Source: Micromonospora sp. M71_S20
Lineage (GTDB): Bacteria; Actinomycetota; Actinomycetes; Mycobacteriales; Micromonosporaceae
DNA length: 64,000 nt
Direction: 5' to 3'
Assembly: GCF_003664255.1 (NCBI RefSeq)
Contig: NZ_RCCV01000001.1
Span: forward strand, 4,092,001 to 4,156,000
A program made the translations under genes and the position numbers. The notes beneath the pieces are model-generated. The model was not told the DNA's origin. It was given only the letters and a program-made list of their open reading frames with translations, and ran no database searches. This document shows positions 17,779-27,052 of the stretch, in pieces; position 1 is the stretch's first letter; each line of letters starts with the position of its first letter.

Positions 17779-18492
17779 TCAGCGGCGGGGGCCGAGTTCG
17801 CCCGCGCGGTAGTGCCGGCGGCAGAGCACCTGGTAGCGCACCTCGGCGCTGTCCACGGTGTCGCCGATGACGACCTGCAGGCCCTCGCGGACCACCCGAC
17901 CGTCGACGACGCGGGCGTTGAGCAGCCCTTCCCGGCCGCACCAGCAGAGCACCTCGACCTGGATGCGGGCCACCTCGTCGGCGAGTTCGAACAGCCGCTG
18001 CGCGGCCGGGAACAGGCACGAGCGGAAGTCGGTGGCCAGCCCGAACGCGTACACGTCGACGTCGTAGCTGTCGACCAGCTCGGCCATCTGCTCGATGTGC
18101 TCCAGGTTGTAGAACGACGCCTCGTCGCAGATCAGGTAGTCGACGCGGACGCCCTCGGCCCAGGTGTCGCGCACGAGGGTGCGCAGGTCCAGCTCGTCGG
18201 TGACCTCGACGGCCTCGTGCGCCAGGCCGATGCGGGTGGTGACCTGCGGGCCCAGCGAGCGGTCGATGCGGGTGGTGACGAGGCCGCGGCGGCCCTGCCG
18301 GGAGTGGTTGTGGTTCATCTGCAACGCCATCGTGGACTTGCCGCAGTCCATCGGCCCCCAGAAGAACTTCAACGCCGCCGCGTGCAGCGGACGCCCGTCC
18401 ACGCCCCGCGCCGCGGCGCACCCGGCGGGGGAGTCGTCGGGGCCCAGCGGCGGGCGCGCCAGGCAGGTCGGGGCGGCGGCGTGGTCGGTCAC
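17779..18492 (-). CDS. tdk: thymidine kinase (type II, TK1-like)
   Basis: It phosphorylates thymidine to dTMP with ATP in the salvage pathway. Walker A is FFWGPMDCGKST (about 43-54 of the 237-residue form) and Walker B is YLICDEASF. The lasso and zinc-site cysteines are in VLCWCGREG and YQVLCRRHY near the C-terminus, and the substrate loop includes YAFGLATDFRSCLFPA. Usual proteins start a few residues before LKFFWG; the GTG at 18492 gives a 35-residue extension rich in Ala and Pro, and the GTG at 18402 gives 207 residues. Neither has a good ribosome site. Confidence 0.9.
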   Translation of the reverse strand: MTDHAAAPTCLARPPLGPDDSPAGCAAARGVDGRPLHAAALKFFWGPMDCGKSTMALQMNHNHSRQGRRGLVTTRIDRSLGPQVTTRIGLAHEAVEVTDELDLRTLVRDTWAEGVRVDYLICDEASFYNLEHIEQMAELVDSYDVDVYAFGLATDFRSCLFPAAQRLFELADEVARIQVEVLCWCGREGLLNARVVDGRVVREGLQVVIGDTVDSAEVRYQVLCRRHYRAGELGPRR

Positions 18493-18554
18493 GGTCGGGC
18501 AGCCTAGCCGATCGACGTCGGCTGATCCGGCCGGTGCGGACGGGCGCGCGTCGC

Positions 18555-19943
18555 TCAGAGCACCCGGGGCGGGGTGTTGCCGGCGGCGACGATCGCCCGG
18601 CGGATCGGCACGGCCAGCAGCAGCAGGAACCCGACGACGAAGAAGATCAGCAGGGAGACCAGGCCCACCCGGTAGGAGTTGGTGAGCTGGAACACGATGC
18701 CGAAGGCCAGCGGGCCGAGCCAGCTGGTGCCCTTGTCGCTGATCTCGTAGAAGCCGTAGTACTCGCCCTCCTTGCCGGCGGGGATGAGCTGGCTGAACAG
18801 CGACCGGCTCAACGCCTGGCTGCCGCCGAGCACCAGGCCGATGGCGGCGCCGAGGATCATGAACGGCAGCGGCGCCTCGGCGGGCAGCCGGAACGCGCCG
18901 AGGATCACCCCGGTCCACAGCACCAGGCTGATCAGCACGGTCTTCCAGGCGCCGATGCGCTTGGCGAGGGCGCCGAGCAGCAGCGCGCCGCCGAAGGCGA
19001 GGAACTGCACCAGCAGGATGGTGACGATCAGGGTGCTCTGCCCGAGCTTCAGCTCCTCGGTGCCGTACTGGCTGGCCAGGGCGATGACGGTCTGGATGCC
19101 GTCGTTGTAGACCAGGAACGCCAGCAGGAAGAACAGCGTCAGCGGGTACGCCTTGATCTCGCGCAGGGTGCGGCCGAGCTGCCGGAACCCGTCGGTGAGC
19201 GGGTTGCCGCCGGCCAGCGCGGCGGCCGTGGGGTGCTCGCGCAGCCAGCGCAGCGGGATCAGGGTGAACACCGCCCACCACACGCCGGCGGACACGATCG
19301 ACCAGCGGGCCAGGTCGAGGGTGCGCTGGTGGTTGCCCTCCTCGCCGAGCATGCTGACCGCGACGAGGTTGAGCGCCAGCAGCAGGCCGCCGCCCAGGTA
19401 GCCCAGCGCCCAGCCGCGGCTGGAGATGCCGTCGCGTTCGTCGGGGCCGCCGAGCCGCGGCAGGAACGAGTTGTAGACCACGACGCCGGCGCCGAAGGCG
19501 ATGTTGGCGACCATGAACAGCGCCCCGCCGAGCAGGTACCGGTCGCCGGTGACGAAGAGCATGCCGACGGTGGCGCCGGCGCCGGTGAAGGCGGCGGCGG
19601 CGAGCAGCCGCTTCTTGTGCGCCGAGCGGTCGGCGATCGCCCCGACGACCGGCAGCGCGAACACGGTGAGGAACACCGACAGCGACACCAGGTACGGGAA
19701 GTACGAGCCGGCGGCGACCTTGACGCCCAGCGGGTAGACGTACCCGGAGCAGGTGTCGGCGCCGAGTTCACAGCCGGCGGCGAGTTCGGTGACGGTGGTC
19801 AGGAACGGGCCGAGGAAGACGGTGATGACGGTGGTGGAGAAGGCGGACATCGCCCAGTCGTAGAAGTACCAGCCGCTGCGTTCGCGGCGGGTGCTCGCCG
19901 GGGCGGGGGTGTCGTCCACGGCGGGGGTGACGGTCTCGGCCAT
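18555..19943 (-). CDS. UMF1-type MFS transporter (Atg22-like)
   Basis: The 462-residue protein has about twelve hydrophobic segments and the UMF1/Atg22 hallmark start RRERSGWYFYDWAMSAFSTT, with GAIADRSAHKKRLLAAAAF in the second loop and NSFLPRLGGPDERDGISSRG after helix 5. It is related to fungal vacuole effluxer Atg22, which exports amino acids; bacterial substrates are unknown. Start ATG 19943. It follows the GDPD gene by 19 bp on the same strand and is probably co-transcribed with it. Confidence 0.9.
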   Translation of the reverse strand: MAETVTPAVDDTPAPASTRRERSGWYFYDWAMSAFSTTVITVFLGPFLTTVTELAAGCELGADTCSGYVYPLGVKVAAGSYFPYLVSLSVFLTVFALPVVGAIADRSAHKKRLLAAAAFTGAGATVGMLFVTGDRYLLGGALFMVANIAFGAGVVVYNSFLPRLGGPDERDGISSRGWALGYLGGGLLLALNLVAVSMLGEEGNHQRTLDLARWSIVSAGVWWAVFTLIPLRWLREHPTAAALAGGNPLTDGFRQLGRTLREIKAYPLTLFFLLAFLVYNDGIQTVIALASQYGTEELKLGQSTLIVTILLVQFLAFGGALLLGALAKRIGAWKTVLISLVLWTGVILGAFRLPAEAPLPFMILGAAIGLVLGGSQALSRSLFSQLIPAGKEGEYYGFYEISDKGTSWLGPLAFGIVFQLTNSYRVGLVSLLIFFVVGFLLLLAVPIRRAIVAAGNTPPRVL

Positions 19944-19962: not shown

Positions 19963-20724
19963 TCAGGCGGCCCAGTGGCCGCGGCTGCGGTAGACGTCGC
20001 GCAGCACGCCGACGTGATCGGTCATGATGCCATCCACTCCGAGGTCGAGTAACTCGTGCATCTCGGCAGGTTCGTCGATCGTCCAGACATGCACGTGCAG
20101 TCCGAGTCGGTGGGCGTGGCGCAGGAACCTGCGGTCCACCACCCGCACCCGCCCGTAGCGCACCGGCACCTGCGCGGCGACCACCGACGGGGGCAGCCGC
20201 AGCGCCCGCCCGGTCAGCGACGCCATCCGCAGCCGGGCCACCCCGCGCATGCCGAGGCTGCTGGCGACGCGCCCCTGGGTGAGGGCGCGCAGCCGGGCCA
20301 GCCGGGCGTCGCTGAACGAGGCCAGCAGCACCCGGTCGCCGGCCCCGACGCGTGCGACGGTGGCCACGGTCGGCTCGACGCCGCCGTCGGCCTTGACGTC
20401 GATGTTGAACCGCACCTGCGGCCAGGCGTCGAGGACCTCGTCGAGGCGGGGGACGACGGCGGCGCCGCCGACGCGTACCGAGGCCAGGTCGGCCCAGCGC
20501 AGGTCGGCGATGCGCCCCGGCTCGCCCGTGACCCGGGTCAGCGTGGCGTCGTGGAAGACCACCGCGACGCCGTCGGCGGTGCCGTGCACGTCGGTCTCGA
20601 CGTACCGGTAGCCGAGCCCGATGGCCCGGGCGAACGCCGCGGCGGTGTTCTCGTCGCCCTCGGCGGCGCCGCCCCGGTGGGCGAAGGCCAGCGGTGTGGG
20701 GCCGTCGAGGTAGGCGTGGGTCAC
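19963..20724 (-). CDS. glycerophosphodiester phosphodiesterase (GDPD)
   Basis: The 253-residue enzyme from GTG 20724 has the GDPD core. AFAHRGGAAEGDENTAAAF provides the HRG...N/E catalytic and metal residues near 16-27, YVETDVHGTADGVAVVFHD gives the ExD and H residues near 43-60, and WTIDEPAEMHELLDLGVDGI and TDHVGVL are at the C-terminal end. It hydrolyses glycerophosphodiesters to sn-glycerol 3-phosphate and an alcohol. No signal peptide is evident with this start, so it probably acts in the cytoplasm. It is divergent from the membrane cassette beginning at 20799. Confidence 0.9.
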   Translation of the reverse strand: MTHAYLDGPTPLAFAHRGGAAEGDENTAAAFARAIGLGYRYVETDVHGTADGVAVVFHDATLTRVTGEPGRIADLRWADLASVRVGGAAVVPRLDEVLDAWPQVRFNIDVKADGGVEPTVATVARVGAGDRVLLASFSDARLARLRALTQGRVASSLGMRGVARLRMASLTGRALRLPPSVVAAQVPVRYGRVRVVDRRFLRHAHRLGLHVHVWTIDEPAEMHELLDLGVDGIMTDHVGVLRDVYRSRGHWAA

Positions 20725-20798
20725 GCGGGGAGTATGCCCGGCGCCGTTGGCCGCCGGGTGGCCGCCCGGTTGCCACCGCGACGCCGTGCGGCTGGCGG

Positions 20799-21542
20799 AT
20801 GTCGGACAGTGACGACGGTGTCGCGCTGCGGTGCGGTGAAGATGTCCGGGTGATGCCATGGATGCCTTCTCCCCGGCCGGGAGGGGCCGAGGAGCCGCCG
20901 GCGTCCGCGCCGGGGGTGGCGGCCCGGGCGTTGGACCCGCTGCCGGCCCGCATCGCGCTGCCGCCGTCGCAGCGCCCGCACCGGCGCGTCCCGCCGCAGG
21001 CCCGGCCGCTGCTCTGGCTGGTCCTGCTGGTCGGTAACCCGTGGGCCGCCCGGCTGCTCATCGAGTGGCGCTATCGACTGCCCCGGGGCGACGGACTGCC
21101 GGGGCTGGTGGGGGCGCTGGGCGAGGCGATGCTGGCGGGGCTGGGCTGGCCGAGGTGGGACGTGCGGCCGCTGCGGGCCGACCATGTCGCCTGGTGGCTG
21201 GCGGAGAACGCCCGCACCGTGCTGTTCGTCGTGATCGCGGTGGCGCTGCTGCGTCGGCTTGCCACTCCGGCGTTCGCGCCGCGGCGTACGCACCGGGTGC
21301 TCGCGGTGATCGGCGCGAGCGTGACGGCGGCGGTGCTCGCGGCGGTGGGCGGCGTGACGATGCACGTCCTCACCGACAGCGGCATGCTGCGCGGCGTGGA
21401 CCTGACCTCGGCGGTGCTCGGCGCGATCTCCGGGGCGCTGTACTGCGGATTCGTCGTGGGTGTCCTGCTGGCCTGGGCGGCGGTGCGCGGACCGGGGCCG
21501 CGCCGTGGGGGGTTCCCGGCGACCCGGCACGGAGGTGGCTGA
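20799..21542 (+). CDS. membrane protein of unknown function, first gene of a three-gene cassette
   Basis: The 247-residue frame from ATG 20799 (ATG 20853 is possible) has a polar, Pro-rich N-terminal 65 residues and then about four hydrophobic segments: PLLWLVLLVGNPWAARLLI, RTVLFVVIAVALL, VIGASVTAAVLAAVGGV and ISGALYCGFVVGVLLAWAAV. No family is recognised. It ends one base before the ATG of the next gene, so the two must be co-translated. It is the least characterised part of the cassette and may anchor or gate its partner. Confidence 0.65.
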   Translation: MSDSDDGVALRCGEDVRVMPWMPSPRPGGAEEPPASAPGVAARALDPLPARIALPPSQRPHRRVPPQARPLLWLVLLVGNPWAARLLIEWRYRLPRGDGLPGLVGALGEAMLAGLGWPRWDVRPLRADHVAWWLAENARTVLFVVIAVALLRRLATPAFAPRRTHRVLAVIGASVTAAVLAAVGGVTMHVLTDSGMLRGVDLTSAVLGAISGALYCGFVVGVLLAWAAVRGPGPRRGGFPATRHGGG

Positions 21543-21543
21543 C

Positions 21544-23247
21544 ATGGTGGTACGGCAGCACAGCGGCCCGCGCGACGAGGCGCCGTCGGCACGCTCGCAC
21601 CCGGACGCCGGCAGCGAGGCCACCCGCTACCTGTGCGCGGCCGCCCACACCGACGACGCGTTCACCGAACGGGTGCTGGCCGAGGTGTTCGACGACGACC
21701 TGCGCGCGGTCGCCCCGTCGGTGGGCTTCGACCTGGGCACGGTGCTGCGGCACTGCCTGTCCGCCCGCCGCCGGCGCCGTCTGCGGGACGTCGGGCTGCT
21801 GGTCGCCGGCGGCCTGGCGGTGCTGCTCGCCCCGCTGGCGACGGTGCTGGTCGGGGTCACGATGGCGGTGGGCAGCTCACTGGCCCCGCTGCGGCCCGGC
21901 CGCAGCGGCCCGGTGGGCCCGTTCCTGTCGATGATCGCGATCGCGACGGTCTCGCTCGTGCTGGTCTTCCAGCTCGGCGCGGCCACGCCCGGCGACGACC
22001 CGGCGGGCCTGCCCGGTTGGGTCGTCGGCCGGCCGTGGCTGGCGCTGCCGGCCGGCCTGGTCGCCTACCTGGTGCTCGTGGGGCACCTGCTGGGCACCCG
22101 GCGGCTGCTGGTGACCCGGTTGCGCCGGGCCCGGTTCCGGCCGGAGCCACCCGACGTGGCGTCGCTGCCGGCGCGCGACGCCGAGCGGCTCGCCGCCGTC
22201 GACCGCGCCCAGGGCGGCAACGTGACGGTCTACGGCGGCTACACCCCGTTCGTCGGGCACGGCACGCCGGTGGCGGGGTGGTCGTTCGCCCTGCCGATCC
22301 TGGCCGACGCCCACGGGCCGGCCGGGACCGCCCCCACGGGCGACGTGTCCGCCCCCGCGCCGTTCACCGTCGTGGAGCTCATCGACCACGTGCGGGCCCG
22401 GCTGGCGGCGATCCGGCTGGACCAGGCCGGCGATCCCACCCCGGCGCGGCTCGCGGGGCTGCTGCTCGAGGACCGGGTGTTCGTCTGCGGCGACCGGCTC
22501 ACCGGCGACACGCGGTTGCTGCCGCACCGGGAGCGGATGCCGCGCCAGCGGTGGTCCGACGACGAGGTACGCGAGGTCGCCGGCCGCCCGCAGGGCGCGG
22601 CGCGGCACTACCTGTGCGCCCTGGTGCCGTCCTGGGGCGGGGAGGTCGTCGCCTCCACGTTCCTGCACTTCTCCACCGACGGCCAGGTGCTCTACCTGGA
22701 GTGTGCCCGCACGGTGCTGGAGCCGCCGCGGCAGGGGTACCACGACGTGGACCGGCTGACCGAGTGGCTGCCGGTGAGTCAGCTCGCGCAGGCGCTGGCC
22801 ACCGGCACCGAGCGGTTGCTGCCCACCGCGCTGGGCGCGCCGGTGCGGCTGCTGCGGGACCTGGTGCGGGGCGTCGCGCGTGGGCGGCGTCAGGCGCGGC
22901 TGCGGCAACTGGCCCGCGAGGACCTGGGCTACGACTACGGTGCCCGGGTCGGCGTGCGGGAGGTCGCCTCCGGCGCCGAGTACCACAACTACTTCCAGGT
23001 GCTCGACGCCGCCAAGCACCTGAAGGTCGTCGAGCGGCACGTGCTGGCCGCCATCATGGACTTCCTGGACGCCCGTGGGGTGGACACGGCCGAGTTCCGC
23101 AACCGGCAGACGACGATCCTCAACCAGGGCGTCATCCAGACCGGCGGCCTGAGTGTGGTCGGCAACCAGGCGGTGGGCCAGGGCGCCCGGGCCGAGCAGC
23201 AGGCCGAGGGGGCGCCGCCGCGCAGCCGTCGGCCGCGTGACGACTGA
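21544..23247 (+). CDS. actinobacterial membrane protein with C-terminal GNQAVG motif
   Basis: The 567-residue protein has a soluble N-terminus (1-75) and three hydrophobic segments (about 80-115, 125-150 and 160-190). A large soluble part follows, with VTVYGGYTPFVGHGTPVAGW near residue 225, a pattern I recall from membrane proteins of unknown function across actinobacteria. After a helical stretch (VVERHVLAAIMDFLDARGV) the C-terminus reads GVIQTGGLSVVGNQAVGQGA at about 531-548. The same motif opens the next protein. In bacterial amyloid-signalling and pRHIM systems a short Gly/Asn/Gln motif shared by neighbouring proteins mediates contact; here that is inference. No enzymatic motif is visible. 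Confidence 0.75.
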   Translation: MVVRQHSGPRDEAPSARSHPDAGSEATRYLCAAAHTDDAFTERVLAEVFDDDLRAVAPSVGFDLGTVLRHCLSARRRRRLRDVGLLVAGGLAVLLAPLATVLVGVTMAVGSSLAPLRPGRSGPVGPFLSMIAIATVSLVLVFQLGAATPGDDPAGLPGWVVGRPWLALPAGLVAYLVLVGHLLGTRRLLVTRLRRARFRPEPPDVASLPARDAERLAAVDRAQGGNVTVYGGYTPFVGHGTPVAGWSFALPILADAHGPAGTAPTGDVSAPAPFTVVELIDHVRARLAAIRLDQAGDPTPARLAGLLLEDRVFVCGDRLTGDTRLLPHRERMPRQRWSDDEVREVAGRPQGAARHYLCALVPSWGGEVVASTFLHFSTDGQVLYLECARTVLEPPRQGYHDVDRLTEWLPVSQLAQALATGTERLLPTALGAPVRLLRDLVRGVARGRRQARLRQLAREDLGYDYGARVGVREVASGAEYHNYFQVLDAAKHLKVVERHVLAAIMDFLDARGVDTAEFRNRQTTILNQGVIQTGGLSVVGNQAVGQGARAEQQAEGAPPRSRRPRDD

Positions 23248-23353
23248 ATCGCAGGGGAGGACGGGCATGCCCGAGGGGACCAACTACGGCATCCAGCAGT
23301 TCGGCGGGGTGAGCCAGGTGGGAAACCAGGCGGTGGGTCCGGGCGCGTACGCC
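23143..23353 (+). repeat. motif coded twice: end of one gene, start of the next
   Basis: Codons 534-550 of the upstream gene (23143-23193) and codons 13-29 of the downstream gene (23303-23353) encode nearly the same 17 residues. They read GG-L-S-V-VGNQAVG-Q-GA-R-A and GG-V-S-Q-VGNQAVG-P-GA-Y-A: 13 of 17 are identical and the central VGNQAVG is invariant. The DNA is also similar (both contain AACCAGGCGGTGGG), so it may have arisen by duplication. Confidence 0.75.
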
Positions 23354-23623
23354 AGCGGCGGCAGCCTGTGGGCCGCCGCGCCCGCCGGTGTCGACGCCCC
23401 GGCGCTGGTCCGGCAGCTGCTCGAGGTGCTCGACCGGCACCGGGGCGAGCTGTCGGAGCCGGCCCGGGTGACGGCCGCGCAGTTGCGTGCGGAGCTGACC
23501 CGTCCGGACGCCGAACCGGGCCGGGTCACCGGGTTGTTGCAGCGGCTGGCGGTGGTGGCGGCTCCGGTGACGCCGGTCGCGACGGCGGTCGGCGAGCTGC
23601 TGCGCCTGGCGCAGGCGCTCTGA
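23267..23623 (+). CDS. small helical protein with N-terminal GNQAVG motif
   Basis: The 118-residue protein starts at ATG 23267, 20 bp after the previous stop, behind GGGGAGG. Residues 5-30 read NYGIQQFGGVSQVGNQAVGP and then GAYAS, a Gly/Gln/Asn-rich stretch resembling short amyloid-like or pRHIM-type signalling motifs. The rest is predicted helical: PALVRQLLEVLDRHRGELSE, TAAQLRAELTRPDAEPGRVT and PVATAVGELLRLAQAL. Small helical proteins with such N-termini occur beside actinobacterial effector or STAND proteins; a firm family cannot be given. The shared motif suggests direct assembly with the membrane protein encoded upstream. Confidence 0.7.
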   Translation: MPEGTNYGIQQFGGVSQVGNQAVGPGAYASGGSLWAAAPAGVDAPALVRQLLEVLDRHRGELSEPARVTAAQLRAELTRPDAEPGRVTGLLQRLAVVAAPVTPVATAVGELLRLAQAL

Positions 23624-23654: not shown

Positions 23655-24434
23655 TCAGCCGGGCGAGCGGTGCCGGCGGTGCGCGCGGCTGGTGTCGCTC
23701 GGGCGGCCGGGGTCGACGTGGCGGGGGCGCTGCGGTTCGTCGGGGCGCAGCGGCACGAGGGCGTCGGTGATGGCGTCGATGATCCGGTCGGTGGCCTGCC
23801 GGGCGGCGCCGGGCGCGCCGTGGGCGAGGTCGGTCAGGTCGACGGGCTCGCCGAAGTGCACGCGCAGCACCGGGCGGCGCCACACGGCGCGGGCGACCCC
23901 GCGCAGCAGCCCCTTCGGGGCGCGGTAGGGCAGCACCTCGTGGGAGCCCCACTGGGCGACCGGGATCACCGGCGCGCCGCAGGTGAGGGCGAGGCGGGCG
24001 GTGCCGGTCTTGCCGCGTTCGGGCCAGATGCCGGGGTCCAGGCCGATGCGGCCCTCCGGGTAGACCAGGATCACCGAGCCGCCGGAGACCGCCGCGGCGG
24101 CGGCGTCGAGGGCGCGGCCGACGGCGGCGGTGCCCCGGTCGACACGCAGGTGCCCGGCGCGGCGCATCGCGGCGCCGAGGACGGGGGTGCGGAACAGCCC
24201 GCCGGTGGCCATGATCCGGGGGGCGACGCCCCGGGCGCGGCAGGCGGCGGCGAGCACGACGGGGTCGAACGGGCTGATGTGGTTGGCGGCCAGGATCAGC
24301 GGGCCCCGGCGCAGCGCCTCGGGTACGTCGCCGCTGACCTCCAGGCGGGCCAGGAGCGCGACGACGACGCGGGCGAGCAGTTGCGCGGCACGCCAGATCA
24401 GCGGTGGCTGCCAGGTCGGGCGGGTGGTGTCCAT
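23655..24434 (-). CDS. 1-acyl-glycerol-phosphate acyltransferase-like protein (PlsC family)
   Basis: The 259-residue enzyme from ATG 24434 shows the PlsC motifs. ILAANHISPFDPVVL contains NHxxxxD catalytic residues near 48-53, GHLRVDRGT is block II, LVYPEGRIGL is the EGR/T substrate block, and APVIPVAQWGS is block IV. It moves an acyl chain to lysophosphatidate or a similar acceptor at the inner face of the membrane. A C-terminal tail rich in Arg, Pro and His is not part of the domain. It is divergent from cydAB and convergent with the motif-sharing cassette. Confidence 0.88.
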   Translation of the reverse strand: MDTTRPTWQPPLIWRAAQLLARVVVALLARLEVSGDVPEALRRGPLILAANHISPFDPVVLAAACRARGVAPRIMATGGLFRTPVLGAAMRRAGHLRVDRGTAAVGRALDAAAAAVSGGSVILVYPEGRIGLDPGIWPERGKTGTARLALTCGAPVIPVAQWGSHEVLPYRAPKGLLRGVARAVWRRPVLRVHFGEPVDLTDLAHGAPGAARQATDRIIDAITDALVPLRPDEPQRPRHVDPGRPSDTSRAHRRHRSPG

Positions 24435-24564
24435 CAGCGCGCAATGGTCGCACGCGCAGGCCGGTCGGCGTGGCGCGGGGCGCGCGGCGGCGGGCCGTCC
24501 GGCAGAGGTGATCAGGGTCATTGGTCCCGGGCCGCTTCGGGCCCCCCGCCCCTGCCGCATTCTC

Positions 24565-24600
24565 TACGACGCGCAGTAGTATTTACTACGTCTCGTAGTA
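24565..24600. promoter_or_regulatory. two tandem inverted repeats upstream of cydA (BlaI/MecI-like)
   Basis: TACTACG-TCT-CGTAGTA (24584-24600) is a perfect repeat with seven-base arms. TACGACG-CGC-AGTAGTA (24565-24581) is a weaker copy 19 bp upstream. The pattern TACTAC...GTAGTA is like the operators of BlaI/MecI/CopY repressors. It lies 21 bp before the cydA start, an AT-rich island in GC-rich DNA, so it probably includes the cydAB promoter. Confidence 0.55.
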
Positions 24601-24621
24601 TGCACAGCCTGGGGGTTACTG

Positions 24622-26037
24622 GTGGACGCGTTGGACGTCGCCCGCTGGCAGTTCGGTGTCACCACCGTCTACCACTTTCTCTTCGTACCGCTGACCATCG
24701 GCCTGTCCGTGCTGGTGGCGATCCTCCAGACGATGTGGCACCGCACCGGCGACGAGAAGTACCTGAAGCTCACCAAGTTCTACGGCAAGCTCTTCCTCAT
24801 CAACTTCGCGATGGGCGTGGTGACCGGCATCGTGCAGGAGTTCCAGTTCGGCATGAACTGGAGCGACTACTCCCGCTTCGTCGGCGACATCTTCGGCGCC
24901 CCCCTGGCGATCGAGGCGCTGGTCGCGTTCTTCCTGGAATCCACCTTCATCGGCCTGTGGATCTTCGGCTGGGACCGGCTGCCCAAGCGGCTGCACCTGG
25001 CCAGCATCTGGGCCGCCGCGATCGGCAGCAACCTCAGCGCGTACTTCATCCTCGCGGCGAACTCGTTCATGCAGAACCCGGTCGGCTACCGGATCAACCC
25101 CGACACCGGCCGCGCCGAACTCACCGACTTCGTGGCCGTGCTGACCAACAAGGTCGCGATGATCACCTTCCCGCACACCATCGCCGGCGCGTTCCTGGTG
25201 GCCGGCTCGCTGCTGGTCGCCGTCGCCATGTGGCACCTGGTGCGCAACCGCGACTCCGCCGACACCCCCGCCTACCGCTTCGCCGCGAAGTTCGGCTCCT
25301 GGGTCACCCTGGTCTCCGCCGCCGCCGTCGCCATCACCGGCGACATCCAGGGCAAGATCATGACCCAGGTGCAGCCGATGAAGATGGCCGCCGCCGAGGG
25401 CCTCTACACCACCGAGAGCCCCGCCTCGTTCTCCGTACTCACCGTCGGCAGCCTCGACGGCAGCCGCGAGCTGTTCGCCCTCAAGATCCCGCACCTGCTG
25501 TCCTGGCTGGGCACCGGCGACCCGAACGGCACCGTGCAGGGCATCAACGACCTGCAGGCCCAGTACGCCGCCCAGTACGGCGCCGGCAGCTACACCCCGA
25601 TCATCCCGGTCACCTACTGGAGCTTCCGCTTCATGATCGGCTTCGGGATGGCCGCCGCCGCCATCGCCCTGCTGGTGCTCTGGAGCCAGCGCAAGGGCCG
25701 CACCCCCACCAGCAAGTGGCTGCTGCGCGCCGGCCTGGTCATGCCCCTGCTGCCCCTCGCGGCGAACTCCTTCGGCTGGATCTTCACCGAGATGGGCCGC
25801 CAGCCGTGGATCGTCTTCGGCGAGATGCTCACCCGCGACGGCGTCTCCCGCAGCGTCTCGCTGACCGAGGTGCTCACCTCCTTCACCGCCTTCACCCTCA
25901 TCTACGCCGCCCTCGCCGTCGTCGAGGTCAAGCTGCTGTTGCGCTACGCCAAGGCCGGCGTGCCCGACCTGACCCCGAACCCCGACATCGACGACACCCA
26001 CGACGACGCCGAGCGCCCGCTCGCGTTCGCCTACTGA
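24622..26037 (+). CDS. cydA: cytochrome bd ubiquinol/menaquinol oxidase subunit I
   Basis: The 471-residue subunit carries the haem sites. It starts MDALDVARWQFGVTTVYHFL with the conserved H near 18, has MITFPHTIAGAFLVAGSLLV with the second H near 180 and EMGRQPWIVFGEML (the GRQPW motif), and a shortened Q-loop compared with enterobacterial CydA. It oxidises menaquinol and reduces oxygen to water in the membrane with high oxygen affinity, supporting growth at low oxygen. The start is GTG. cydB follows after 16 bp. No cydDC genes are present here. Confidence 0.95.
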   Translation: MDALDVARWQFGVTTVYHFLFVPLTIGLSVLVAILQTMWHRTGDEKYLKLTKFYGKLFLINFAMGVVTGIVQEFQFGMNWSDYSRFVGDIFGAPLAIEALVAFFLESTFIGLWIFGWDRLPKRLHLASIWAAAIGSNLSAYFILAANSFMQNPVGYRINPDTGRAELTDFVAVLTNKVAMITFPHTIAGAFLVAGSLLVAVAMWHLVRNRDSADTPAYRFAAKFGSWVTLVSAAAVAITGDIQGKIMTQVQPMKMAAAEGLYTTESPASFSVLTVGSLDGSRELFALKIPHLLSWLGTGDPNGTVQGINDLQAQYAAQYGAGSYTPIIPVTYWSFRFMIGFGMAAAAIALLVLWSQRKGRTPTSKWLLRAGLVMPLLPLAANSFGWIFTEMGRQPWIVFGEMLTRDGVSRSVSLTEVLTSFTAFTLIYAALAVVEVKLLLRYAKAGVPDLTPNPDIDDTHDDAERPLAFAY

Positions 26038-26053
26038 ACACCGGAGACACACC

Positions 26054-27052
26054 GTGGAACTCACCACCATCTGGTTCCTGCTCGTCGCGGTCCTGTTCAC
26101 CGGGTACTTCATCCTCGAGGGCTTCGACTTCGGCGTCGGCATGCTGCTGCCCGTGCTCGGCCGCGACGACCGGGAACGCCGCGTCCTGATCAACACCATC
26201 GGCCCCGTCTGGGACGGCAACGAGGTCTGGCTCATCACCGCCGGCGGCGCCATGTTCGCCGCGTTCCCCGAGTGGTACGCCACCCTGTTCTCCGGCTTCT
26301 ACCTGCCGCTGCTGCTGATCCTGCTCGCCCTGATCATCCGCGGCGTCGCCTTCGAGTACCGCCACAAGCGCCCCGAGGCGACCTGGAAACGCCGCTGGGA
26401 CACCGCCATCTTCGTCGGCTCGGTGGTGCCGGCGGTGCTGTGGGGCGTGGCGTTCGCCAACATCCTGCGCGGCGTGCCGCTCGACGCCGACCACGAGTAC
26501 GTCGGCGGCCTGCTCGACCTGCTCAACCCGTATGCCCTGCTCGGCGGCGCGACCACCGCGGCGCTGTTCCTCACCCACGGCGCCGTGTTCATCGCCCTCA
26601 AGACCGTCGGCGAGGTACGCGAGCGCGCCGCCGCCCTCGCGGTGCGCGTGGGCGTGGCCGCCGCCGCCCTCGCGGTGGCGTTCCTGACCTGGACGCTGAA
26701 CATCCGCTCCAGCACCGCCGCCGTCGTCTTCGCCATCGGCGCGGCCCTGGCGCTGCTCGGCGGCCTCGCCGCCGCCCGCGCCCGCCGGGAGGGCTGGGCG
26801 TTCACCGGCACCGCCGTGGCGATCGCGCTGGCCGTGGCGACGCTGTTCGCGGCACTGTTTCCGAACGTGCTGCCCTCCACCGGTGACATCGCCGGCACGC
26901 TGACCGCCACCAACGCCGCCTCCACCCCCTACACCCTGAAGATCATGACCTGGGTGGCGGTGGTGTTCACCCCGATCGTGCTGGCCTACCAGGGCTGGAC
27001 GTACTGGGTGTTCCGCAAGCGCATCGGGGTGGCCCACATCCCGCGGCACTGA
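26054..27052 (+). CDS. cydB: cytochrome bd oxidase subunit II
   Basis: The 332-residue subunit has about eight to nine membrane segments and the family markers MELTTIWFLLVAVLFTGYFI, GFDFGVGMLLPVLG, IGPVWDGNEVWLITAGGAMF, and the end WTYWVFRKRIGV. CydB stabilises the haem centre of CydA as a structural half of the oxidase. It is in an operon with cydA, starts with GTG, and ends at the hairpin at 27101-27142. Confidence 0.95.
   Translation: MELTTIWFLLVAVLFTGYFILEGFDFGVGMLLPVLGRDDRERRVLINTIGPVWDGNEVWLITAGGAMFAAFPEWYATLFSGFYLPLLLILLALIIRGVAFEYRHKRPEATWKRRWDTAIFVGSVVPAVLWGVAFANILRGVPLDADHEYVGGLLDLLNPYALLGGATTAALFLTHGAVFIALKTVGEVRERAAALAVRVGVAAAALAVAFLTWTLNIRSSTAAVVFAIGAALALLGGLAAARARREGWAFTGTAVAIALAVATLFAALFPNVLPSTGDIAGTLTATNAASTPYTLKIMTWVAVVFTPIVLAYQGWTYWVFRKRIGVAHIPRH

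Follow-up and report, generated by a model that had tools for sequence, protein, structure and literature searches.

We describe a three-gene cassette from a 64,000-nucleotide (nt) stretch of Micromonospora sp. M71_S20 DNA (the window; contig NZ_RCCV01000001.1, positions 4,092,001 to 4,156,000) in which a membrane protein and the small protein encoded behind it carry nearly the same short motif. All three genes lie on the + strand. The first, A0 (20799-21542), encodes a 247-residue membrane protein with about three hydrophobic segments as judged by hydropathy, and its stop is separated by 1 nt from the start of A (21544-23247), which encodes a 567-residue membrane protein without a Pfam or NCBIfam family. 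Hydropathy and AlphaFold2 helices place three hydrophobic (membrane) segments of A at 21796-22095 (residues 85-116, 124-142 and 166-184), and behind them lies a soluble alpha/beta domain (22171-23094, residues 210-517) loosely like the KA1, Bet v1 and StARkin folds. The third gene, B (23267-23623), encodes the 118-residue partner protein of A. The AlphaFold2 model of B is a four-helix bundle (23396-23617, residues 44-117) with a predicted local distance difference test (pLDDT) score of 76.9 and a predicted template modelling (pTM) score of 0.64, and a moderately hydrophobic stretch lies near its end by hydropathy. An alternative GTG start of B at 23237 would give a longer protein overlapping the stop of A, and the longer start is present in a close relative (P0002, 129 residues). 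No Pfam family was found for A0, A or B of the window at an expectation value (E) of 1 or less; NCBIfam gave no family for A or B and a single meaningless match for A0, and PADLOC returned for the window proteins only a weak match of A0 to Unk_04 (E 0.0056, 35 residues).

The first copy of the motif, at 23122-23193, comprises residues 527-550 of A (NQGVIQTGGLSVVGNQAVGQGARA); it comes right behind the last folded helix and opens the C-terminal tail. The second, at 23282-23353, comprises residues 6-29 of B (NYGIQQFGGVSQVGNQAVGPGAYA). The two are identical at 16 of 24 residues (BLASTP E 3e-6, single comparison), and a hand count over A 534-550 and B 13-29 confirms the 13 of 17 identities given in a preliminary description of this DNA. 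A DNA pattern encoding GNQAVG has exactly two matches in the whole 7.8-Mb Micromonospora genome, one in A and one in B. Because this pattern is unique in the genome to the two genes and the motif recurs in their relatives, the match is not attributable to chance. The A tail has a pLDDT under 50 from residue 532 and the B head over residues 1-27; both motif copies, hereafter called tags, are thus low-confidence (predicted to be disordered) in the AlphaFold2 models, beside confidently modelled domains in A and B.

A protein search returned at least 117 homologues of A, the closest among the matches listed being 97% identical (Micromonospora sp. NBC_01740), and A was detected (E<=1e-10) in 68 of the 394 genomes sampled from the class. 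Most of the listed homologues end in a tail rich in G, N, Q and S, the sequence of which varies. A first set of 80 loci of ~10 kb (numbered with the prefix L) was fetched, taking the strongest A matches of the class-genome search first. In each, A was located by a hidden Markov model and its partner B was taken as the next same-strand gene chosen by third-position guanine-cytosine (GC) content alone, blind to the motif. The score of a pair is that of a local alignment between the 75 C-terminal residues of A and the 75 N-terminal residues of B. Co-variation was counted over 71 of these loci plus the window, 72 in all; L113, which has no B candidate at a contig end, was left out, as were the tail-less controls L122-L129, eight loci from a larger number of tail-less paralogue matches. 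A second, named set held the best 80 of 95 loci, with third-position GC deciding the choice of B, or length in loci of at most 60% GC; it gave 79 scored pairs (L177 is without a candidate) and is not independent of the first, since at least L162, L165 and L168 appear to be contigs of the first set.

The tails of A and the heads of B co-vary. In the 72 loci, own A-B pairs have a mean score of 72.1 against 31.5 for cross pairs, and none of 20,000 permutations reached the own-pair mean (permutation maximum 39.1). When one locus was kept per cluster of A bodies at 50% identity, the own B ranked first in 22 of 31. Shuffling only within A-body clusters of at least 60% identity (36 loci) gave 65.2 against an observed 77.8, a value reached in 0 of 5,000 shuffles, so relatedness does not explain the matching. 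The same holds for paralogous pairs within one genome: across 14 genomes with two or three pairs each, the own pair beats every same-genome cross pair in 32 of 32 cases (mean 75.2 versus 26.2). For this comparison the B of L068 was re-picked by hand, and two genomes (L088/L104 and L112/L121) were left out, one member of each having already failed. Own pairs of the partly overlapping named set score 73.1 against 48.6 for crosses (79 pairs), and among 16 divergent representatives of that set the values are 67.2 and 29.6, with the own partner best in 12 of 16. The range of tags is illustrated by L096 (A NYGNQVFGTQNADGMNFGPGSTTV, B NHGNQVFGTQNADGMNFGPGSTTV), L111 (A GATFHGGRHSFSGSTFGSGDIHHH, B GATFHGGRHSFSDSTFGSGDIHHH), L105 (A VSGQGNVFGDQAQVTN, B VSGQGNVFGDNNQVTN) and the Tolypothrix locus L179 (A NSGVLVSGGSFQATNVSSGTNTKAIIN, B NQGIQVTGGHFWADNVASGNNTMAIKN). 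Co-variation of the motif between neighbours, which the preliminary description had named as one way to check its proposal, is therefore present in own-versus-cross scores, in shuffles restricted to relatives and in pairs from the same genome. The refutation it had proposed, by gene pairs kept without the motif in one or both proteins, came out the opposite way.

Tail-less paralogues of A provide a counterpart to these pairs. The eight loci L122-L129 hold a conserved A paralogue, mostly ending in KADVYDA or similar and lacking the tag. A profile of the B helix domain, blind to partners of the PNP or EAD1 type described below, found no such domain in any of the eight ~11-kb loci. The same profile detected 29 of 41 B loci out of sample, 15 further control loci in the scan being rows of the profile itself, and at this rate it is unlikely that B was missed in all eight.

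Codon identity was compared over 67 loci, the window and 66 others (L068, L078, L104, L110 and L121 were left out here and in the peptide comparisons and B-domain counts below). Pooled, 637 of 1,050 identical motif residues share a codon; the codon usage of the genes themselves predicts 546.5. Most of the surplus, 66 of 90 codons, falls in 11 loci, where 184 of 226 residues share a codon and 117.6 would be expected. Across the other 56 the figure is 453 of 824, with 428.9 expected (standard deviation (sd) 12.8), and in the window it is 8 of 14, with 7.7 expected. Since codons lie near expectation outside the 11 loci, the window included, the match appears to be kept largely at the protein level. 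In six loci the end of A and the start of B are identical in DNA over 24-52 bp; five of these loci (L054, L082, L086, L096 and L111) belong to the 11 high-excess loci and L058 lies outside. Such exact identity is a sign of recent copying between A and B. We read this as occasional copying that would supply new matched tags, with selection at the protein level keeping them matched.

The named set comprises actinomycetes (Micromonospora, Lentzea, Streptomyces, Amycolatopsis, Actinomadura, Kineosporia and others) and four cyanobacteria (Brasilonema, Tolypothrix, Scytonema and Richelia). These genera grow as filaments. Within this set, all 9 Micromonospora/Verrucosispora loci and 6 of 8 Lentzea loci have A0 immediately before A by tblastn. 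In 23 long A proteins, most of them from Streptomyces, the N-terminal extension matches the A0 family in profile comparison (98.3% probability, E 1.5e-14), the same likeness being marginal or not significant in single-sequence comparison; judged by the profiles, A0 is fused to A in Streptomyces. With A0 also kept upstream of A in relatives, the three-gene cassette of the preliminary description is borne out. In Lentzea flava (P0050, L142), A and B form one chain through a single motif, and together with the A0-A fusion of Streptomyces this means that natural fusions tie all three products together. The Lentzea flava fusion looks as if recombination between the motif copies had removed the intervening segment. 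A and B are separated by at most 65 nt in 67 of 68 loci; when the most upstream B start is taken they overlap in 41 of 68, 26 of them by exactly 4 nt, counts that are overstated because a B start up to 40 nt inside A was allowed. In three related loci (L061, L063 and L065) a gene for a large HerA/DUF87-like ATPase lies just upstream of A.

In contrast to the constant A, B is variable. Among the 67 B proteins, Pfam identified PNP_UDP_1 in 11, DUF5955 in 10 and the effector-associated domain EAD1 in four; the rest, including the B of the window, which is without EAD1, are mostly small and family-less. In most B proteins the part beside the tag is helical, and some of these domains are DUF5955-like. 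No caspase or cyclase family was matched by any of the 67 at E<=1e-3. The B of L202 is cyclase-like by eye and has no Pfam match at 0.01. PADLOC matched two of ten proteins of the wider family, both of them B: the PNP-type B of L082, the only one of its type scanned, matched an Effector PN-superfamily model (2.6e-25) and PDC-M60C (2.3e-19), and the helical B of L050 matched PDC-M14B (3e-4). The earlier suggestion of a membrane-linked signalling or defence module fits the PNP_UDP_1 and EAD1 domains of other B proteins and the effector match of L082. Helical B proteins were surveyed for hydropathy, leaving out L068, L078, L104, L121, the EAD1 loci and B proteins of 200 residues or more. Of 52 such proteins, 19 exceed 1.6 (Kyte-Doolittle) over a run of 19 residues, and the median distance from the end of the most hydrophobic stretch to the C-terminus is 2 residues. 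In three B proteins read whole (L070, L074 and L076) the tag is present in two copies.

Further genes recur downstream of B. A third gene at L069-L071, L074-L076, L079, L083-L085 and L087-L091 encodes a product with a single hydrophobic helix that has a brief RWNxxxQxW-like start and is followed by a long part; of 31 candidate third-gene proteins 22 were scanned, and three are PsbP-like. The PNP-type B of L082, L086, L092 and L094 is followed by a conserved protein of ~220 residues with an N-terminal hydrophobic helix, for which Pfam gave no family in L082. In the window, the flanking genes (17779-19943, 19963-20859 and 23655-27052) were judged by eye only and resemble genes for a thymidine kinase, a UMF1-type transporter, a glycerophosphodiester phosphodiesterase, a PlsC-type acyltransferase and cytochrome bd oxidase subunits. 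As these look like housekeeping genes, the cassette seems to sit alone among them.

The loci thus contain an A-B gene pair with matched tags that co-vary largely at the protein level, A paralogues without a tag and without a detected B, and alternative B domains. The combination of the same sequence in both partners, predicted disorder, matching operon by operon and occasional doubling is the pattern of HET-S/NWD2 and of bacterial amyloid signalling systems (BASS), as set out in the consulted sections of the literature (PMC5485727, PMC7889193, PMC8086366, PMC9815663), and it leads us to propose templating of the tails. We lean towards a model in which A, together with A0, is a membrane-anchored receptor or transducer and B its dedicated partner, the two being switched by amyloid-like templating of the tags. 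When triggered, A would cluster at the membrane and its disordered C-terminal tag would adopt a beta fold, probably cross-beta and amyloid-like. By direct tag-tag contact, the folded tag would then template the matching tag at the N-terminus of B, and the variable domain of B would be brought into a multimer and so switched on. The output would be a nucleoside phosphorylase or nucleosidase, an EAD1 adaptor recruiting further effectors, or a small helical bundle possibly acting on the membrane, and the outcome may be defence or regulated cell death. With its own version of the tag in each operon, several such switches could operate in one cell without cross-talk. More tentatively, with somewhat less than an even chance of being right, the pairs may represent a large family of bacterial amyloid signalosomes independent of NOD-like receptors (NLRs), in which a receptor in the membrane would use a matched prion-like barcode to template a cytosolic executor, be it a nucleosidase, an EAD1 adaptor or a helical protein, with barcodes renewed by gene conversion between neighbours and several orthogonal prion-like switches coexisting in one cell.

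The main rival to tag templating is a contact that is not amyloid, in which the A tail and B head would co-fold as a beta-hairpin, beta-roll or other small heterodimer and hold the proteins in a constitutive membrane complex. Co-varying pairs would be expected of any dedicated interface, the natural A-B fusion fits a constitutive complex, and the tags are unlike the two published amyloid motif peptides with which they were compared. However, heterotypic interfaces would usually co-vary by complementarity, whereas the tags keep much of the same sequence, which is the likely mark of homotypic stacking; two tag copies in each of three B proteins would fit stacking rungs, and tags modelled alone have low confidence. 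We therefore regard the co-folded interface as unlikely, though it is a serious competitor. The cassette could instead be an envelope or lipid-homeostasis unit rather than a defence system, with A binding a lipid or small ligand through its StARkin/KA1-like domain and B a subunit tethered by the tag. This is a rather improbable reading, as B carries a PNP_UDP_1 enzyme or EAD1 domain in 15 of 67 loci, the PNP-type B that was scanned matches a PADLOC effector family, and changing tags and a patchy spread are unlike housekeeping functions.

DNA copying, by gene conversion or tandem duplication, could also have left the shared motif behind as a by-product, with no functional pairing between the proteins. 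The exact DNA shared in six loci and the codon surplus, both pooled and outside the 11 high-excess loci, are what such copying would leave. The surplus is nevertheless concentrated in those 11 of 67 loci, codons elsewhere are near expectation, and the tail-less A paralogues examined are without a detected B; we disfavour this explanation strongly and consider it very improbable.

Several observations weigh against the templating model itself. The own B takes first place in no more than 36 of 72 loci and a place among the top three in 56, because relatives carry near-identical tags. Tags form a continuum, the 63 pairs above score 44 falling by single linkage into 23 clusters at a cross score of 60, six at 50 and three at 44; the idea of dozens of unrelated motifs was rejected, since the clusters merge. 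Against a bar of 44, the highest same-genome cross score, 63 of 72 pairs of the first set and 71 of 79 of the named set lie above, and nine and eight, respectively, at or below it. Some of these have a technical or structural cause: matched tags exist in L068 and L110, which fail through picking or frame errors, the reading frame of A in L199 was not resolved, and L142 is the A-B fusion. Tag pairs are weak but visible in L061, L063, L064, L073 and L196. Others are plain exceptions, with no intact A tail in L121 and L207-L210, no recognisable tag pair in L078, and an A tail with no B found alongside in L104, L182 and the unscored L177. Outside the 11 loci, themselves chosen by their excess, the remaining 56 keep a slight codon surplus (+1.9 sd). 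The remaining eight proteins scanned with PADLOC, two of A and six of B or the third gene, gave no match, and the defence role is suggested by domain types, not by a phenotype. We infer the order in which A acts upstream of B, and A carries its tag at the C-terminus as NLR-dependent effectors do. No nucleotide-binding domain family, as expected of an NLR or STAND partner in BASS, was found in A or B of the window or among the Pfam matches of the 67 B proteins. Finally, for one published BASS3 peptide 3 of 134 tag ends match at p<=0.01; for one fungal PUASM peptide the count is 13 of 134 at p<=0.05, where shuffled queries give 4-22, and both results are at chance level. In the window, the RHIM-like BASS3 peptide gives p 0.03 against the A end, by way of residues that lie outside the motif, and p 0.70 against the B end. 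Because known motif families are unrelated to each other, a chance-level match leaves a like mechanism possible; it lends no support to one.

A 2021 review of amyloid signalling asks, in its consulted part, whether NLR-independent signalling amyloids exist in fungi and bacteria, and states there that earlier searches were biased to pairs of an NLR and an executor (PMC7889193). The A-B family, in which a membrane protein stands where the NLR would be, offers a concrete candidate for an answer. No description of it was found in the full-text literature searched, a coverage that excludes most subscription papers and the primary BASS paper (Dyrka et al. 2020). Its many naturally matched tag pairs, two or three per genome in 14 cases, would allow a direct test of how specific prion-like templating is; the B of some loci is a PNP-type enzyme, a kind listed among phage-defence effectors.

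Among known systems, conflict systems coupled by EADs, including EACC1, resemble the A-B pair in joining a constant membrane or core component to a variable effector and in the homotypic coupling of neighbours, the copies in adjacent genes being most alike (PMC7159879, PMC8195603, as far as the sections consulted describe them); EAD1 itself occurs in four of the 67 B proteins. The coupling element of A-B differs in being a predicted disordered tag of ~20 residues and not a folded domain. Unlike EACC1, which in the consulted part of PMC7159879 has one transmembrane segment, A combines three hydrophobic segments with a soluble domain, and the caspase-family or cyclase product encoded 3' in EACC1 has no counterpart among the 67 B proteins. 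The two-gene membrane system of EACC1, as described there, is a parallel in layout and, by the tests run, not a relative. PADLOC Unk_04, an I-E associated membrane protein known from the same context as a STAND NTPase, matches A0 too weakly for assignment, and no STAND gene was found in the cassette.

The fungal PUASM (NLR-PNP_UDP) and HET-S/NWD2 systems also resemble the A-B pair: neighbouring genes share a short motif, the effector is PNP_UDP in a subset, and single and double copies occur, whereas the partner there is an NLR and the motif is C-terminal to PNP_UDP in fungi and N-terminal in A-B (PMC9815663 and PMC5485727, in the parts consulted). Doubled tags in three B proteins resemble the effector side of HET-S and often of BASS4, where two motif copies are described in the available excerpts. 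In BASS, the preliminary description had found its model, a short end-to-start motif as signalling link; co-variation supports the link, and the NLR or STAND partner is not seen. A-B differs from BASS in that no NLR was found with the pair, in that the partner with the C-terminal motif is a large membrane protein, and in that the partner with the N-terminal motif is a small helical, EAD1 or PNP_UDP_1 protein. Pfam gave no CHAT or TIR match in the window proteins or the 67 B proteins; the B of the window is a four-helix bundle in its model, yet its tag is N-terminal, whereas the Bell, CHAT and TIR effectors of BASS carry theirs at the C-terminus. A Walker-A check of 71 loci (745 genes) found 167 proteins of at least 450 residues, seven with the pattern, one of them A itself; of the six others scanned, two are NB-ARC proteins, neither with the A/B motif, NLRs that lack the pattern, are shorter than 450 residues or lie elsewhere in the genome not being sought. 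An NLR as hidden third partner was rejected, as neighbouring genes held no further motif copy at score 45 except three low-complexity matches. In L079, an 803-residue NB-ARC and TPR protein is encoded ~1.7 kb downstream of A on the other strand; its N-terminus, VVQARDISGGVHFHNQ, is a short G/H-rich stretch unlike the A/B tag of that locus and may be a separate NLR-type amyloid motif.

Shared with BASS1-10, which pair an NLR with Bell, CHAT or TIR proteins, is the layout of adjacent, often overlapping genes whose products carry a ~20-residue motif at the C-terminus of one and the N-terminus of the other, together with many versions of the motif, occurrence in filamentous actinomycetes and cyanobacteria and occasional repetition on one side (PMC7889193 and PMC8086366, in the sections consulted). 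A short motif co-varying between two adjacent gene products, as expected of BASS, is found in A-B. Without being a demonstrated member of these systems, the A-B pair would work like the BASS and NLR signalosomes.

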